From Chloroflexota bacterium (GTDB lineage: Bacteria > Chloroflexota > Dehalococcoidia > UBA3495), in NCBI GenBank assembly GCA_022576105.1, contig JACZRM010000135.1, positions 1-5,523 on the forward strand: DNA of 5,523 bases, in the 5' to 3' direction. The notes below the pieces were generated by a model. That model saw only the letters and a program-made list of their open reading frames with translations. It ran no database searches and was not told the origin of the DNA. Within the stretch, counting starts at the first letter, position 1. Each line of letters begins with the position of its first letter. This document shows, piece after piece, positions 82 through 5,523 of the stretch. The position numbers and the translations under genes were made by a program.

Positions 82-1290
82 TTACTTCAACTCCGATATT
101 GTTAACGACAGCTTGCCGTCGGCCTGACCGCTGTCCGTGTTGTTTTTCAGGTTAAGCCGCCAGCCGGTCAGCCCTTGCTGCACCGCGGCTTGGTCCAGGC
201 GGAAAGTTACACTGGGAGCTTGAGGCGATATCTGCACCGGCTTGGACTGGCTGCCGTCCGGTCGCAGGAAAATTACCTCCAGGGAATCAGCCGTTCCCTG
301 CCACTCTGCCTTGGCATGAACGCGAGTTGGTACCGCTTCCGGCAAGGGGAAGGCAAAAGTGACATCTTCGCCAGGGTCCAGCAGGAAATCGGCTTGAAAG
401 GACGCACCGCCACCGCGAAGCACCAGGAAGGCAATTATTATTGCGGCCACCGCCAGCACCAGGACGGCCGCGCCGGCCCAGAGCAGCCATTTGGGAAATC
501 CCCTGGCCGGCGCCGGGGCGTCGGTCGCCTGGTCCAGCGCCTGCTCCGGTCTGCTGGACACTCGTAAATAGGCCCGGGGATTGCGCCGACGCCGGAACAT
601 GAACGCCACCGCGTTGCCCATGAAATTGGGTAAACGGGCCGTAGCATCCAACTGCGCTGGAATAGTCTTTGGCTCTGCGGTCTCCGGGTCCGGCGTTGCG
701 GAGAGCGTGAGCGAGTAGGTGCGAGGACGGCCTTTCAGGGGCCGTTTGGCTGGTTCAACCACCAACTCAACCCCGGTATTTTCACCCGGGCCCAACCGGG
801 GACGCTGGGGATCAAACAGGAACCGGCAAAGCGATTCCTGATCGCTTCCCGACATCTGAATGTTCAAGTCAGAGTTGCCGGAGTTGCTTAACTCCACCAG
901 AAAGTACCCCTTGGGGTTAGTGTCTTTCTGGGGTCGCACGAGGGCGTCGAAGGCGTAGAAAGGCAACAAGTCCAGAGTTGCCGGTTGCTCGGTTACTTGG
1001 GTGGGGTCTTTTTGCGAGCTGACTTTGATGGCAAAGGAATAATTCTTGGCCAGGGAAGCGCTGACCTTGGGAGGAGTGATCGTTAAAACGCTTTCGGCCT
1101 GGTCGGCCGGGAAAAGGGCGGAACTCACCAGAGATAGCTTACACCAGGATGGATCCAGCCCCACCACTTCCAGGGAAACTACGTCAACTACGTTGCTGGA
1201 GTTCTGCAGGGCAATGGTGATTTCAGCGGATTCGCCGGGGTTAAGCTGAATATTTTCGGGAGTAAGCGTAACTCCGATGTTGTCCGACAT
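82..1290 (-). CDS. Single-pass membrane protein with two Ig-like domains; candidate CisA-like CIS membrane adaptor
   Basis: The protein has 402 aa and no N-terminal signal peptide. Residues about 5-108 and 112-219 look like two Ig-like beta domains of the COG1470/NEW3 type, with paired features such as LNPGE (16-20) and LGPGE (166-170). An Arg-rich stretch (RRRR at 233-236) and a Pro/Ala-rich linker follow, then one strong membrane helix at 268-291. A beta-rich C-terminal domain at about 297-402 carries DPGED, PDG and GWRLNLKN elements that resemble PPC-type domains. Positive charges before the helix predict the N-terminus inside and the C-terminus outside. The ATG at 1290-1288 has GAGG 9 nt upstream and follows the DUF4159 gene by 23 nt. 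Known from the literature: S. coelicolor CIS needs a membrane adaptor, CisA, with a cytoplasmic N-terminus. Inferred: this protein plays the same docking role. The fold and topology are fairly secure; the adaptor role is a hypothesis, and homology to CisA was not tested. Confidence 0.72.
   Translation of the reverse strand: MSDNIGVTLTPENIQLNPGESAEITIALQNSSNVVDVVSLEVVGLDPSWCKLSLVSSALFPADQAESVLTITPPKVSASLAKNYSFAIKVSSQKDPTQVTEQPATLDLLPFYAFDALVRPQKDTNPKGYFLVELSNSGNSDLNIQMSGSDQESLCRFLFDPQRPRLGPGENTGVELVVEPAKRPLKGRPRTYSLTLSATPDPETAEPKTIPAQLDATARLPNFMGNAVAFMFRRRRNPRAYLRVSSRPEQALDQATDAPAPARGFPKWLLWAGAAVLVLAVAAIIIAFLVLRGGGASFQADFLLDPGEDVTFAFPLPEAVPTRVHAKAEWQGTADSLEVIFLRPDGSQSKPVQISPQAPSVTFRLDQAAVQQGLTGWRLNLKNNTDSGQADGKLSLTISELK
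91..94 (-). promoter_or_regulatory. Ribosome binding site deciding the GTG start of the lipoprotein
   Basis: GGAG on the minus strand lies 9 nt before GTG (81-79), within the last codons of the preceding gene. With stop and start directly adjacent (TAA then GTG), the two genes are probably translationally coupled. Confidence 0.5.
418..489 (-). other. Transmembrane helix coding segment of the 402-aa protein
   Basis: Codons 268-291 encode an uninterrupted run of Trp, Leu, Ala, Val, Ile and Phe, about 24 residues long. It is flanked by Arg/Lys before it (RGFPK) and Arg-Gly-Gly-Gly after it. It is the only segment of this kind in the protein, so the protein is single-pass. The heavier positive charge on the N-terminal side (residues 233-249) supports an N-in, C-out orientation. 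Confidence 0.85.
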
Positions 1291-1313: not shown

Positions 1314-2489
1314 TTACCCGGTAGCCACTTTTATGGACCGAAGGTGAGTGCGCCGATAGGAATAGATACCCATATTGGTCCCAATCTCCATAGCCGACCG
1401 AATTGATGACCGGGCAGCGGGTTTTCCGGGGCTACCGCCCGCCCAGAGGCAACCAAAATCGCCGTCGCTGAATACTATACCATCACCCGCCATCAAGCGC
1501 GAGGGGCCGTTGGAGCCTTCCGGAGGTTGGCCGAATCGGTAGGGAGTTGTCAGCAAGGGGTGGTCCCGTTCCACCAATACCAGCTCCCGATTTAACTGCC
1601 GCGCCAGGGTTATAAATGATTGACTGAATGGATTGGAGTCTCCGCCGCCGACGTTTCCGGAACTGCAGGGTTCCCCCAACAGCACGCCACCGCGCCCTAG
1701 AAAATTGAGCAGAACATTTTGCCAGTCTTCGGTCACGTCAAATTCCTGGTGGCCGGCCATCAACAGCAGGCTGATCCCGGAAATGTCCTCGTTGAGATTA
1801 ACCGTCCCCTTCAATTCGGCCTGGTAGCCAGTATGAGAATTGATGGCCTGGACCAAGCCGAGCGCGCCGGACAAATGCAGCACTTCACCGCTGGCGGTAG
1901 CCTCCAACGGCACCACGCCAACGCTGATCTCCCCCATCGACCGCGGCCCGGATTCCTTGCGGTAACGCAGGTCGATCTGGTCCGGCCCCGGATCGCCCAT
2001 CTCCGGAGCGTCGGATACAGTTGAGCTGGTCCCAGAAATGGATACCCGGGCCAGTTCAACGCAAACATCGTTGGGGACCTGCCGGCGCTCCTCCAAGGTG
2101 TAGCCTTCCAGTATGTAGGCGGCCTGGGAATCGTCGCCGGCGGTGGCTTCATCACTGCCCTGGGAGACCTCCCGGTACTGCAAGACCAGCAACGCGCTGC
2201 CTGCTTCTTGGACTTGCAGCTGCAGGCGGAGTGGTTCCGCCACCATGATTACGTTTCCCTCCGAGTCTACGGCCACTCCGGGGTACACCACCACTGAATT
2301 GTCGGGAGGGCTCCAGGCGACCACATCCAGCCCGGTCACAACTCCAGGACGGTGCATGGACAGGGTGTGCAACTGGCGGTGCAACCGGTGGTAATCGTGG
2401 GCTGCCGACCAGGTGGCGACATCAATTGCCAGGCCACGGTGGGGATTGAGTCTTCGGATTGGCTTCTTCAACAGGTCGGCTAGAGACAC
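1314..2489 (-). CDS. Two-domain CIS accessory protein: baseplate-style N-terminal module plus DUF4159-like domain
   Basis: The protein has 391 aa and starts at GTG (2489-2487) behind a strong GGAGG 7 nt upstream. Residues about 16-105 contain HRPGVVTGLDV (46-56) and VYPGVAVDSEGNVI (68-81), a pattern of the beta-rich 'PG-A-D-G-I' modules found in tail and baseplate proteins. A middle stretch (about 125-205) includes VELARVSI and an acidic loop. Residues about 212-378 match the DUF4159 layout: LLLMAGHQEF (241-250), LLNFLGRGGVLLGEPC (260-275), ERDHPLL (307-313), then GIVFSDGDFGCLWAGG (337-352) and a late AMEIGTNMGIYSY (366-378). DUF4159 has a glutaminase-like fold in family classification, but no activity is established and no catalytic triad is claimed here; Cys275 is noted only as a candidate. 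The gene follows the tail protein I gene after 101 nt and precedes the membrane protein by 23 nt. It could be a peripheral baseplate part or a regulator of firing; which one cannot be told from sequence. Confidence 0.7.
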   Translation of the reverse strand: MSLADLLKKPIRRLNPHRGLAIDVATWSAAHDYHRLHRQLHTLSMHRPGVVTGLDVVAWSPPDNSVVVYPGVAVDSEGNVIMVAEPLRLQLQVQEAGSALLVLQYREVSQGSDEATAGDDSQAAYILEGYTLEERRQVPNDVCVELARVSISGTSSTVSDAPEMGDPGPDQIDLRYRKESGPRSMGEISVGVVPLEATASGEVLHLSGALGLVQAINSHTGYQAELKGTVNLNEDISGISLLLMAGHQEFDVTEDWQNVLLNFLGRGGVLLGEPCSSGNVGGGDSNPFSQSFITLARQLNRELVLVERDHPLLTTPYRFGQPPEGSNGPSRLMAGDGIVFSDGDFGCLWAGGSPGKPAARSSIRSAMEIGTNMGIYSYRRTHLRSIKVATG

Positions 2490-2590: not shown

Positions 2591-3238
2591 TCAATTGGGG
2601 GATTCGGGCGATTGGGTGGGTTGAGCAGTCACCGACCCGTTTCTGGCCACCACTTCAAGACTGTAGGCGGTGTGGGCTGGTTTCTCCGATTCGATGATTA
2701 ACTTTAGCTGGCGTAGGTTCACCGAGGCGGGGTCATCCAGTTCCAGGCGAACATTGAAAGTGAACTGCCCTCCGCTCCCTCCCAGTATTGTGTTCCAGCC
2801 CAGACGGGCGCTGCCGTCAAGCGTCAAGCCGCCAAATTCTTCGGTAATCTCCGGTTCCACTCCGCTGTAAACCTTCAAATAGTCTCGCAGACCTCGCTTG
2901 GTGCCCCGCCATTGGTACAGCTCAACCGCCGATTTTATCAGCGCCCGCCGGCTTTCCAGCGGCCAGGTCTCGTCCAGGACCAGGTTCAGCCAGGACGCCA
3001 GCCAGGTCAGCAATTCCGGCGGAGCGATGGCGGGATCCAGATAATATGAGATGTTGTCCAGGACCTCCTCCAGCGGCGCCATCACGCTCTCAAAAATCAT
3101 TAGAAAACGCCCCATGAAATCGCCCTCGGAGTAGATGGCCGGTAAATAGGCCAGGTAACTGCTGCGCTGCTCAACTCCAACGGCGTTGGGAGGCGCAAAT
3201 TCCTGGGGGACAGTGTTTTCCCTGGTGCTGACGACCAT
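2591..3238 (-). CDS. Phage tail protein I (P2 gpI / T4 gp7-like) of a CIS baseplate; Afp12/Cis12-type
   Basis: The protein has 215 aa and is complete. The motifs follow the CIS form of the family closely: YLAYLPAIYSEGDFMGRFL (28-46), a helix leading to YYLDP (65-69), then APPELLTWLASWL (72-84), the RGTKRGLRDYLKVYSG segment (111-126) followed by EITEEF (130-135), and a C-terminal LIIESEKPAHTAYSLEV (180-196). The last 15 or so residues are Pro/Ser/Gln-rich and probably disordered. In the family, this protein pairs with the J/gp6-like protein to form the baseplate wedge that surrounds the hub and holds the sheath until firing. The start ATG (3238-3236) has GAGGT at 3250-3246, 7 nt upstream, overlapping the J stop codon; the gap to J is 11 nt. 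Family assignment is secure; the number follows Afp/Cis order by analogy. Confidence 0.9.
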   Translation of the reverse strand: MVVSTRENTVPQEFAPPNAVGVEQRSSYLAYLPAIYSEGDFMGRFLMIFESVMAPLEEVLDNISYYLDPAIAPPELLTWLASWLNLVLDETWPLESRRALIKSAVELYQWRGTKRGLRDYLKVYSGVEPEITEEFGGLTLDGSARLGWNTILGGSGGQFTFNVRLELDDPASVNLRQLKLIIESEKPAHTAYSLEVVARNGSVTAQPTQSPESPN

Positions 3239-3245
3239 GACAACG

Positions 3246-3250
3246 ACCTC
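3246..3250 (-). promoter_or_regulatory. Ribosome binding site of tail protein I, touching the J stop codon
   Basis: GAGGT on the minus strand lies 7 nt before the ATG at 3238-3236 and shares its first base with the TAG stop (3252-3250) of the J gene. This arrangement favours coupled synthesis of the two wedge partners. Confidence 0.6.
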
Positions 3251-5283
3251 TAAAAGCAGGTTACGCTATGGCTGTGGGAGCAGAGCAACCCGGATGCTGG
3301 AACCGATAAGGACTGTATGGCCTCTCCCCGTACCCCGGTTGTTGGATCGACGGGGAACACCTTCAGGTCCTCAATGTAGTTCACCCCGGGCACCGATTGT
3401 ATCTGGGCGGAAAGTTCCGAGTCGAAGAGCCCCCGGCCAAAAGCCCAACCGGAGCCGTCGCCACCGCCGTGAACGGGATTGATGAACCGGTAAAGCTGCT
3501 CTTCGATGGCCTGCTTCACCTGGATTTCGGTCCCGGGTCTGGTGTTCACCCTGGCCTCTACTGCCACCCAGGTATACTCAGGTTCCGATACAGTCAATGC
3601 CACCGACAGTAATCGGCGCTCGTCCAGGTATTCCTTGACCTGTTTCAACAAATCGGCGGGGATAGCCAGGTCTTCCGGGGTTAGTCGGCGGTCAGACCTG
3701 GGGAGATTGGGCACCAGCAAGACCTGGACCACGCCCGGTGGCGGCGCTCCCTCCTGACCGGTTTCTTGGGGTTGCAAGCAGTGGGCGCGCCCCACCGAAG
3801 GAGACGCCTCCTTGGCCAGGAACTCAAAGTCTCCGGCGGTTACCGCGCGGTGCAGCGTGCGCAGGGCTTGCGGGCCCCGCATCTTGGCGTTTTCAATGTC
3901 CTCCGCTTCGACGCCGCCGGTGGCCGACCGACGGTTGGTCACGGATGCCACGTAAGGGATAGAAGACTTGAGCACCCGGAGGGTTTCCCTTCCCACGTTG
4001 CCCTGAGGTCCAGCGCCATGCCGATACGAAGTCAGCCGCACCCGGGAACCCCGGGGCGGCGCCGCCCCATGCCGGACGTTATCTCCATTGGGGGAGCGAA
4101 TGGCCGGGCCAAATCGGACTTCTCCCGAAACCGGATCACACTCAAAGTGACGGTCCAAAACGCCAGATTGGGAGAACTCGGAAACCTGTTCCCAGGCTTC
4201 CCATCCGCTGTTGTCTTCGGCTTCCACCTCCACGGTTTCCCCGGGGCCCAGCGGCAGTATGGGCACCTGGGATATCTTCATCACTTGCCCGGTCTTGCCG
4301 TCACTGGTGCCCAGCACTTCGCCCACTTGGCGGGTGATATTGCTGGCCGCAACCAGCCCTCCCACTGCTTGGGACTCGATAGTCCTCAATCGCGGGGACG
4401 ACTCGTAGGAGCCTTGCGACCGGCTGAAGGGTGTTAACTGACAGCGGATCCAGTATCCTTCCCGTAGACCCACGGTGGTCAGACCCGCGGTACGTGGCAG
4501 GTGGAACAACACTTGACCGTGGGTGTTCAGTCCTTGAGTGGCATCGGTATCCAACCAGGCCTGGCTTTCCGGTTGACGTTCAAACCTGTTCCAGTCTTGG
4601 TCGGCCCCGTCCCAATATTCCCAGAGCAATGGCGGATTATCCGGATTAACCCCCACCACGGCGATATCCTCCAAGCCAAAGTTGACCAGCAGCACCGCCC
4701 CTCGGAGATCAGACCCGTAACCAAGATAAAAGGTGTTGCCCGGCTGCGGTACGTCTTGAAACAGGCTGAAGTAGGGTGGTGCGTCGCCCTGGCCCGGACC
4801 CCGGGCCTGGCTGGCAGCCATTTCCTCCAGCAAGGGGATGCGGTCTTCGAATTGGGTCCCGTCCGGGGTGGTAAGAAAATGGTCGAGCCGGGGCACGGAG
4901 ATACTTAGATTCTCGTCGGTGGTAAAAACGATGGCGTTCTGAGTTTCGGTGCGTACTGTCGCTACCTCGGTGCCCCGGGGAATGGTCAGGGTTTCGGAGG
5001 TGGGCGCGGTGAGGCGAAAAGTGATCTCGGTCCTGGCCGGGTTGCCGGGGGTCAGCCTTACCCCGATCAGGTCCAGGAACTTCACATAGTTCTTGTCCGG
5101 CACCCGATTGAGCCGGTAGATAATCAGCTCGGTCATCCAGGCGAACAGCTCGATCAGCGTAATGCCCGGATCACTCAGGTTGTGGTCAGTCCATTCAGGA
5201 CAGTATTGGGGTATTTTGCTGCGGGCCTCGTTCACCAGGTCTTGAAATGTGCGATCGTCCAGGTTTTGCACCGGCAGAGCCAT
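3250..5283 (-). CDS. Baseplate J-like / putative baseplate assembly protein (T4 gp6-like; Afp11/Cis11-type)
   Basis: The protein has 677 aa and is complete. The N-terminus carries the family signature: DHNLSDPGITLIELFAWMTE (33-52), YRLNRVPDKNYVKFLDLIGV (56-75) and a PARTEITF turn (82-89). The middle has WEYWDGADQDW (221-231), GYWIRCQL (276-283) and WEAWEQVSEFSQSGVLDRHF (361-380), then GEVRFGPA (387-394) where relatives usually show FGDG. The C-terminal half has GAGPQGNVG (423-431), a LRTLHRAVTAGDFEFLAKE segment (474-492), the GRGLFDSELSAQIQSVPGV block (616-634) and a Ser/His-rich end. In the family this is the large wedge subunit that forms the baseplate ring with the gpI-like protein and links to the gp25-like protein. 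The ATG has GAGGAG 7 nt upstream and follows the gp25-like stop by 4 nt. No frameshift or internal stop is seen, and the length is within the usual CIS range. Confidence 0.93.
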   Translation of the reverse strand: MALPVQNLDDRTFQDLVNEARSKIPQYCPEWTDHNLSDPGITLIELFAWMTELIIYRLNRVPDKNYVKFLDLIGVRLTPGNPARTEITFRLTAPTSETLTIPRGTEVATVRTETQNAIVFTTDENLSISVPRLDHFLTTPDGTQFEDRIPLLEEMAASQARGPGQGDAPPYFSLFQDVPQPGNTFYLGYGSDLRGAVLLVNFGLEDIAVVGVNPDNPPLLWEYWDGADQDWNRFERQPESQAWLDTDATQGLNTHGQVLFHLPRTAGLTTVGLREGYWIRCQLTPFSRSQGSYESSPRLRTIESQAVGGLVAASNITRQVGEVLGTSDGKTGQVMKISQVPILPLGPGETVEVEAEDNSGWEAWEQVSEFSQSGVLDRHFECDPVSGEVRFGPAIRSPNGDNVRHGAAPPRGSRVRLTSYRHGAGPQGNVGRETLRVLKSSIPYVASVTNRRSATGGVEAEDIENAKMRGPQALRTLHRAVTAGDFEFLAKEASPSVGRAHCLQPQETGQEGAPPPGVVQVLLVPNLPRSDRRLTPEDLAIPADLLKQVKEYLDERRLLSVALTVSEPEYTWVAVEARVNTRPGTEIQVKQAIEEQLYRFINPVHGGGDGSGWAFGRGLFDSELSAQIQSVPGVNYIEDLKVFPVDPTTGVRGEAIQSLSVPASGLLCSHSHSVTCF

Positions 5284-5287
5284 GTCG

Positions 5288-5523
5288 CTACTCCTCGCCC
5301 AGAATTGTGTAGAAGGGGTACACCATGTTCACTTCGTCATTGGTGCCCCGTACCACGTACTGAATGTTGATCATGACCAAGCTGTGGTCCGAAGGGTCGG
5401 GTTGCACATCCACGTTGGTCACGTCAATGCGGGGCTCCCAGCGGGCCAACGCCTCTTGAACGTGGTAAGCCAGCAGCCCGGCGGTGGTGGCGTTATTGGG
5501 AGCGACGATAAATTCGTGAATCG
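5288..5523 (-). CDS. GPW/gp25-like baseplate wedge protein, C-terminal part (Afp9/Cis9-type)
   Basis: A frame enters from the right edge and ends at TAG (5290-5288); 77 full codons are visible, so the N-terminal third or so is missing. The visible protein reads through the typical gp25 C-terminal pattern: IHEFIVAPNNATT near the edge, HVQEALARWEPRIDV (the conserved EPRI turn), a LVMINIQYVV strand, then TNDEVNMVYPFY just before the end (ILGEE). In T4, P2 and Afp-type particles this small protein joins the wedge to the first sheath ring and starts sheath assembly. It is followed after 4 nt by the J gene, the usual neighbour in CIS loci. The call comes from manual translation of the minus strand. 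The start codon and upstream genes (hub, spike, PAAR, sheath, tube) lie outside the window. Confidence 0.9.
   Translation of the reverse strand, partial: IHEFIVAPNNATTAGLLAYHVQEALARWEPRIDVTNVDVQPDPSDHSLVMINIQYVVRGTNDEVNMVYPFYTILGEE
5291..5296 (-). promoter_or_regulatory. Ribosome binding site of the J gene, inside the end of the gp25-like gene
   Basis: GAGGAG on the minus strand is formed by the last two Glu codons of the gp25-like gene and lies 7 nt before the J ATG (5283-5281). The stop of one gene and the start of the next are 4 nt apart, so translation is likely coupled. Confidence 0.65.

Follow-up and report, generated by a model that had tools for sequence, protein, structure and literature searches.

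A CIS-linked Ig-like, single-pass membrane protein of Chloroflexota: kinase-less form of a proposed membrane receptor family that includes Sco4256-4258

The locus and its Ig-TM protein

The stretch of DNA analysed here, which we call the window (5,523 nucleotides of contig JACZRM010000135.1 from a Chloroflexota bacterium), carries a run of genes on one strand in the order gp25, J, gpI, a CIS13-like gene and, last, a gene for a membrane protein with Ig-like domains (Ig-TM). The gp25-like wedge protein is cut by the window edge and represented by its C-terminal end (5288..5521, minus strand; PF04965, 49.8 bits); it is followed by a J/Cis11-like baseplate wedge protein (3250..5283, minus strand; TIGR02243, 492.8 bits) and a gpI/Cis12-like one (2591..3238, minus strand; TIGR02242, 117.7 bits). 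From J through gpI and the CIS13-like gene to the Ig-TM gene, the intergenic gaps are 11, 101 and 23 bases. An earlier note on this DNA had grouped the Ig-TM gene with the baseplate wedge genes, and the same-strand gp25, J, gpI and CIS13-like genes that adjoin it bear this out.

The 391-aa CIS13-like protein (1314..2489, minus strand) combines a weak N-terminal match to CIS13_fam (37 bits, far under the cut-off of 370) with a C-terminal DUF4159 (PF13709, 36.1 bits, cut-off 25.9), and a hydropathy scan finds no transmembrane or other hydrophobic segment in it. This fusion of a CIS13-like N-terminal part to DUF4159 stands at a position often occupied by tail fibre genes, and similar genes occur in eight Chloroflexota genomes (G057, G085, G109, G157, G213, G245, G260 and G287). 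The window covers part of the cluster; no FHA domain was found in its four complete proteins, gpI included, and no kinase in its Ig-TM protein.

The Ig-TM gene (82..1290, minus strand) begins with ATG and encodes 402 aa, predicted to be single-pass and arranged as Ig, Ig, transmembrane helix and jelly roll; sequence, an AlphaFold2 model, alignment, BLASTP and a tree place the protein in the CIS-linked family of Sco4256-4258. Its N-terminus, MSDNIGVTLTPENIQL, has no hydrophobic signal sequence. The model has beta-sandwich domains inside residues 5-216, mostly with a pLDDT above 90: a first, PapD-like Ig-like domain at residues 3-110 (961..1284, minus strand), delimited by the model and fold matches, and a second at residues 113-216 (643..954, minus strand), delimited by the model and Pfam, which matches PF22067 at 133-182 (27.3 bits, cut-off 27) and, below threshold, PF22544 at 133-196. 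Fold matches to this N-terminal half include PapD-type pilus chaperones, CEP192/SPD-2, ciliary central-pair proteins and WxLIP. A low-confidence link (222-264) contains RRRRNPRAYLR at 233-243, and sequence and low pLDDT together define an Arg-rich stretch at residues 233-247 (550..594, minus strand). The transmembrane helix (residues 267-291; 418..492, minus strand), placed by model, hydrophobicity and alignment, starts within a PKWLL motif (266-270) that is found again in actinobacterial relatives. The predicted structure ends in an all-beta jelly-roll domain (residues 296-402; 85..405, minus strand; all-beta over 296-400 in the model), for which a Pfam scan gives zero matches, and cysteine occurs twice in the whole protein, at 50 and 155. 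The reading frame and the model agree with the two Ig-like domains, single transmembrane helix, missing signal peptide and C-terminal domain described earlier; the stretch that had been called Arg-rich and juxtamembrane is indeed Arg-rich, but it lies on the N side some 24 residues ahead of the helix.

Relatives in Actinomycetota, Chloroflexota and Deinococcota

A phmmer search with the window protein returned close relatives, as well as distant ones from Actinomycetota annotated as COG1470 or as hydrolytic protein, and BLASTP aligned window residues 4-182 with a Sco4257/4258-like protein at 65 bits (E 9e-16). On these sequence grounds, the window protein belongs with the Streptomyces CIS proteins Sco4256-4258 in one family. 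The comparison rests on two members from an S. coelicolor-like genome, identical over their first 280 residues, which fit the published description of Sco4257/4258; no third paralogue was seen there. Their C-domains match a ricin-type lectin and PF03498 (cytolethal distending toxin A/C domain). In the published accounts Sco4257/4258 closely resemble Sco4256 at the N-terminus (PMC10066040), and the first part of Sco4256 is pilus-chaperone-like (PMC10020575). The window protein is thus like Sco4256-4258 in its homologous N-terminal Ig-like region followed by one transmembrane helix, its pilus-chaperone-like first part, its link to CIS and its variable C-terminus, and unlike them in having a jelly roll where they have a ricin-type lectin domain, in belonging to a different clade, and in gene position, the Streptomyces genes lying between an AAA ATPase and the sheath gene whereas the window gene lies beside baseplate genes. 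The family profile served to fetch 80 loci (79 from Actinomycetota and one from Chloroflexi, with flanks of 10 kb and several short contigs). Of these, 69 have one or more of six CIS-type neighbour families, or 66 when the two families named by our own comparison are left out, and 36 hold VgrG, CIS5 or J. In 61 of 70 loci the actinobacterial family member is accompanied by a gene for a TolB-like propeller of about 1080 aa with an N-terminal hydrophobic segment (e.g., L070:5664-8906, minus strand, and L002:4956-9734, plus strand), which often adjoins it.

In many relatives the sequence ahead of the Ig-Ig-TM module holds FHA domains, with or without a Ser/Thr kinase, as seen with Pfam, which was run on 10 receptors. 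Forty genomes were classified from 58 entries, a few of which belong to a single gene split by a locus edge (L114/L176, and two of G170); using phmmer with few query domains, as for FHA on gpI, we find the kinase form in 12 and either the kinase or the FHA form in 20. An HRD-type motif is present in 14 of 18 kinase entries and DFG in 17; L114, one of those without HRD, is a cut entry. Reading of gpI in 37 Chloroflexota genomes likewise shows FHA at its N-terminus in 14, and Deinococcus aquaticus has it too, compared with none of three actinobacterial genomes; when nine gpI proteins were run through Pfam, seven had FHA and two (L184 and L166) did not. The two features go together, FHA-bearing gpI occurring in 11 of 11 kinase-form genomes read versus 2 of 25 others (p 1.3e-7; this and all other p-values here are descriptive, being inflated by kinship among the genomes). 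In four of 10 clusters (G072, G112, G297 and D. aquaticus), the gpI and kinase genes overlap by 4 bp, stop on start. The D. aquaticus plasmid pDATS01 is annotated in its own record with gp25, baseplate J, an FHA protein and a protein kinase; Pfam, through which the kinase was also run, identifies the FHA protein as gpI. Roseiflexus castenholzii P0141 is an Ig-TM protein of the kinase/FHA type, and the Roseiflexus-like genome G170 encodes a relative 82% identical to P0141 after J and gpI.

Several of these loci have features of their own. Behind J in G170 (L153 and L154, C1:2040000-2072000) lie six Ig-TM family genes in a row, with kinase/FHA parts and differing C-termini, and one kinase-FHA-Ig-TM protein (L157:3316-6300, minus strand) ends in a formylglycine-generating-enzyme-like (FGE) domain (PF03781). 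Fusions of FHA to gpI, mostly in kinase-bearing CIS clusters, are encoded at L158:9777-10742, L174:8089-9066, L175:7600-8550, L167:6565-7485, L173:2568-3497, L155:7193-8089, L162:6913-7896, L161:5853-6746, L153:5953-6993 and L216:12734-13720. Our searches of open-access literature, as distinct from subscription papers and preprints, found no paper linking FHA or Ser/Thr kinase domains to CIS beyond T6SS; the available text of PMC8213781 mentions only a histidine kinase beside a regulator.

In a tree of the module (arbitrarily rooted, with 6 of the 58 entries left out), the window protein, its metagenome relatives and the proteins of G057, G085, G173 and G260 form a clade of 13 rows with support 99/93, all without kinase and FHA domains. 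The other clades are an actinobacterial/CisA one (19 rows), a double-FHA type (6 rows) and a kinase-rich one (19 rows: 15 kinase, 3 FHA and 1 with neither), and another two kinase rows sit in a group that the tree does not resolve. CisA and the kinase/FHA form never share a genome among the 40 classified (10 with CisA, 20 with kinase/FHA; p 4e-4). CIS13-like genes, scored in the fetched loci only, occur in eight genomes, none with FHA-gpI or CisA (gpI read in seven of the eight; p 0.03). Eight genomes fit none of these three settings (CisA, FHA-Cis12 or CIS13).

Receptor, cargo and other readings

Our essential contention, to which we assign a probability of about one half, is that the window protein represents the kinase-less form of a family of membrane receptors, dedicated to CIS, that dock or sense at the cell's own membrane. 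A kinase must face ATP, and for this reason the N-terminal side of the module is cytoplasmic in the relatives that carry one; by homology with them, the Ig-like half of the window protein is probably inside the cell, as the earlier note had proposed. Charge bias was considered as further support for this N-in topology and fails family-wide, the N side of the transmembrane helix having the greater net charge in 27 of 57 family proteins, and both sides the same in seven. The related idea of a CIS docked at its own cell's membrane gains strength from the kinase/FHA relatives and from FHA on their gpI, but published work on Sco4256-4258 favours a role as cargo (PMC10066040).

A serious rival, which we hold to be less likely than not, is that the protein is instead loaded in the CIS tube and ejected, its transmembrane helix inserting in the membrane of the target or of the producer, where the variable C-domain would act. 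Sco4256-4258 were published as effectors of the S. coelicolor CIS, their loss emptying the tubes (approximately 85% empty in the triple mutant, whereas approximately 97% are filled in the wild type); the mutant is reported to survive nisin and the proteins to be toxic in E. coli (PMC10066040). Purified particles contained Sco4256, but they contained SCO4242/CisA likewise, so presence there is not decisive (PMC10020575), and the cargo reported for S. lividans is another pair, Sle1/Sle2 (PMC13277306). Within the family, the part after the transmembrane helix varies as in an effector family, from 134 aa (L102) to 2625 aa (L160), and few C-terminal pieces match any Pfam family; the scan covered 44 of 54 Chloroflexota pieces and that of the window, and most of the pieces must be matchless. 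Each of the 22 Pfam families found there matches one to three pieces; most are of Ig-like, lectin and repeat types, a C39-peptidase-like domain and an FGE domain occur once each, and no classical toxin is among them. The PF03498 and ricin-type lectin matches of the Streptomyces members favour cargo, and the scarcity of Pfam matches together with PF03498 leads us to put somewhat more weight on it. On the other side, the kinase-FHA-Ig-TM proteins, many of which reach or exceed about 1000 aa and which are coupled to an FHA-bearing baseplate protein, have the look of resident signalling proteins. Glycosylation of SCO4256 is presumably extracytoplasmic. SCO4256 is tabulated as a membrane glycoprotein with one transmembrane helix and no signal peptide, a listing that fits a resident N-in/C-out protein and speaks against cargo; it is no proof of an outside part, because the same table has five proteins classed as Other, ribosomal protein S15 among them, and includes some apparently cytoplasmic proteins (PMC6593405).

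An improbable reading is that this is a generic COG1470-type membrane protein that neighbours CIS genes but serves envelope stress and not the CIS. That homologues should adjoin CIS genes was one of the checks that the earlier note proposed, and the census agrees: the family is present in 46 of 301 Chloroflexota genomes (E < 1e-20; 64 matches, and 46 of the 61 genomes with any match), a full-length-like J in 42 (a single-piece match scoring 245 bits or more, from among the 69 genomes with any J match) and both in 40 (p 7e-41). With a looser criterion for J (over the TIGR02243 cut-off, 59 genomes), 43 have the family (p 5e-35), leaving three of the 46 family genomes without J and 16 J genomes without the family. 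Absences are soft, the first pass having scored at most five candidates per genome for the family and at most three for J, and G213, which the census gave as J-only, proves on direct reading to have a family gene beside J. Thirty-five of the 64 family matches share a contig with a full-length-like J, all within 20.7 kb. In at least 15 fetched clusters, read by eye, the family gene comes after gpI or CIS13 on the same strand, as in the window, and the window's gene order is found again in L172 and L152, for example; elsewhere the gene has a different cluster position and may be on either strand (L150/L151, L163, L164, L168 and L170). A scan of viral contigs, with the Ig-TM protein and J as queries, gave no relative. 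In favour of a generic neighbour are the six family genomes without a full-length-like J (three without any J over the cut-off) and the 29 matches on contigs without one; against it stand the family's presence in 40 of 42 full-J genomes, with one of the two exceptions (G213) corrected on direct reading, its recurrent place after gpI or CIS13, and the overlap with gpI in some relatives.

CisA itself was recovered from the S. coelicolor-like genome, at a locus anchored with two SCO4253 primers, each exact over 22 bases and giving the published 432-base product (PMC2000904); the first 12 bases of one primer are unmatched and probably a designed tail. It is the first open reading frame past the J gene region, 468 aa from its ATG, with a transmembrane helix at 285 and zinc-ribbon cysteines, in agreement with the account in PMC12237407. 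That the window protein is a homologue of CisA, as the term CisA-like in the earlier note implied, deserves next to no credence, for although the order of parts is alike (a soluble N-part, one transmembrane helix and an all-beta C-domain) and the gene is near wedge genes, hhalign gives a probability of 1.9% and BLASTP an E of 0.79, the invariant zinc-ribbon cysteines of CisA are all missing, and both exist as separate genes in 10 of 301 genomes; at the sequence level it is refuted, and it could return only through a deep structural relationship between the C-domains. The CisA C-domain is F5/8 type C-like (a PF25302 match just below cut-off) and that of the window protein a jelly roll by model, with no Pfam match. 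Strong CisA profile matches (E < 1e-40) occur in 10 of the 301 Chloroflexota genomes, all 10 also with J and an Ig-TM family member, and since both genes occur together, CisA and the Ig-TM family are separate components. At E <= 0.001 the profile matches 167 genomes, of which those outside the 10 were set aside; among the matches listed, the weak ones are short and mostly zinc-ribbon pieces. CisA-type proteins are thus encoded in Chloroflexota (L169:9887-11251, and L196-L205), a wider range than the actinomycetes stated in PMC12237407.

A receptor model and its analogues

In the receptor model, the window protein would sit in the producer's cytoplasmic membrane, its two Ig-like domains in the cytoplasm and its jelly roll facing out. 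Contact with the CIS would be made by the Ig-like half, probably through gpI/Cis12 or the CIS13-like protein encoded next door, while the jelly roll would sense the envelope; together the two halves would hold an intracellular CIS at its own membrane or trigger it there, as is proposed for CisA in Streptomyces. FHA domains bind phosphothreonine. One on gpI, with a membrane kinase alongside, points to baseplate docking that depends on phosphorylation. In the relatives, with kinase and FHA on the receptor and FHA on gpI, docking would accordingly be gated by threonine phosphorylation. The sequences suggest such a switch in the relatives only; the window protein, as the kinase-less form, would dock through its Ig domains, perhaps with the CIS13-like protein. 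It is also conceivable that a receptor role may be limited to other clades, given that the window protein, its gpI and its 13-row clade have neither kinase nor FHA. Roseiflexus particles are reported to be unanchored in intact cells (PMC12998442), which we count against docking, while noting that it would be compatible with a transient, gated contact.

The model has analogues in other systems. CisA (SCO4242) resembles the window protein in its single transmembrane helix, soluble N-part, C-domain (outside, as it probably is in the window protein) and gene close to the wedge genes, and possibly does the same job; what sets it apart are its zinc ribbons, a C-domain like F5/8 type C, and the lack of any detectable sequence relation. 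In T6SS, PpkA has a kinase, a transmembrane helix and a periplasmic domain in that order and recruits T6SS parts with Fha (PMC12607579). The relatives likewise have kinase, transmembrane helix and outside domain with an FHA protein encoded next door, whereas the window protein has neither kinase nor FHA, the relatives' FHA is on the baseplate protein itself, and the Ig-like domains and CIS context set the family apart. We favour the view that the window family works like CisA or PpkA-Fha, being neither. In the thylakoid CIS of Anabaena, Cis13 is described as tying the baseplate to the cell's own membrane, and it is alike in being a CIS-cluster protein that makes this link; however, it is trimeric and tail-fibre-like with a C-terminal transmembrane helix, whereas in the window the helix is in a separate Ig-TM gene (PMC8894136).

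A broader proposal, which we put forward tentatively and with rather less than even confidence, is that Chloroflexota and Deinococcota CIS related to subtype IId use a phospho-threonine switch composed of a transmembrane kinase-FHA-Ig-Ig receptor and an FHA-bearing Cis12, and that Ig-Ig-TM proteins, Sco4256-4258 included, are general receptors at the cell's own membrane and not injected effectors. CisA, FHA-Cis12 and CIS13 would then be three docking alternatives, the window being an example of the third, kinase-less kind.

These observations bear on how and when an intracellular CIS meets its own membrane and fires, for which CisA is the factor characterised in Streptomyces. A 2026 study reports that Roseiflexus is without a close cisA homologue and that its mechanism may differ (PMC12998442). 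The Ig-TM family adjoins baseplate genes in the Roseiflexus-like genome G170 and in many Chloroflexota CIS, and its kinase and FHA domains would provide a concrete and testable switch. The evidence from this family also puts in question the view of Sco4256-4258 as injected effectors only.
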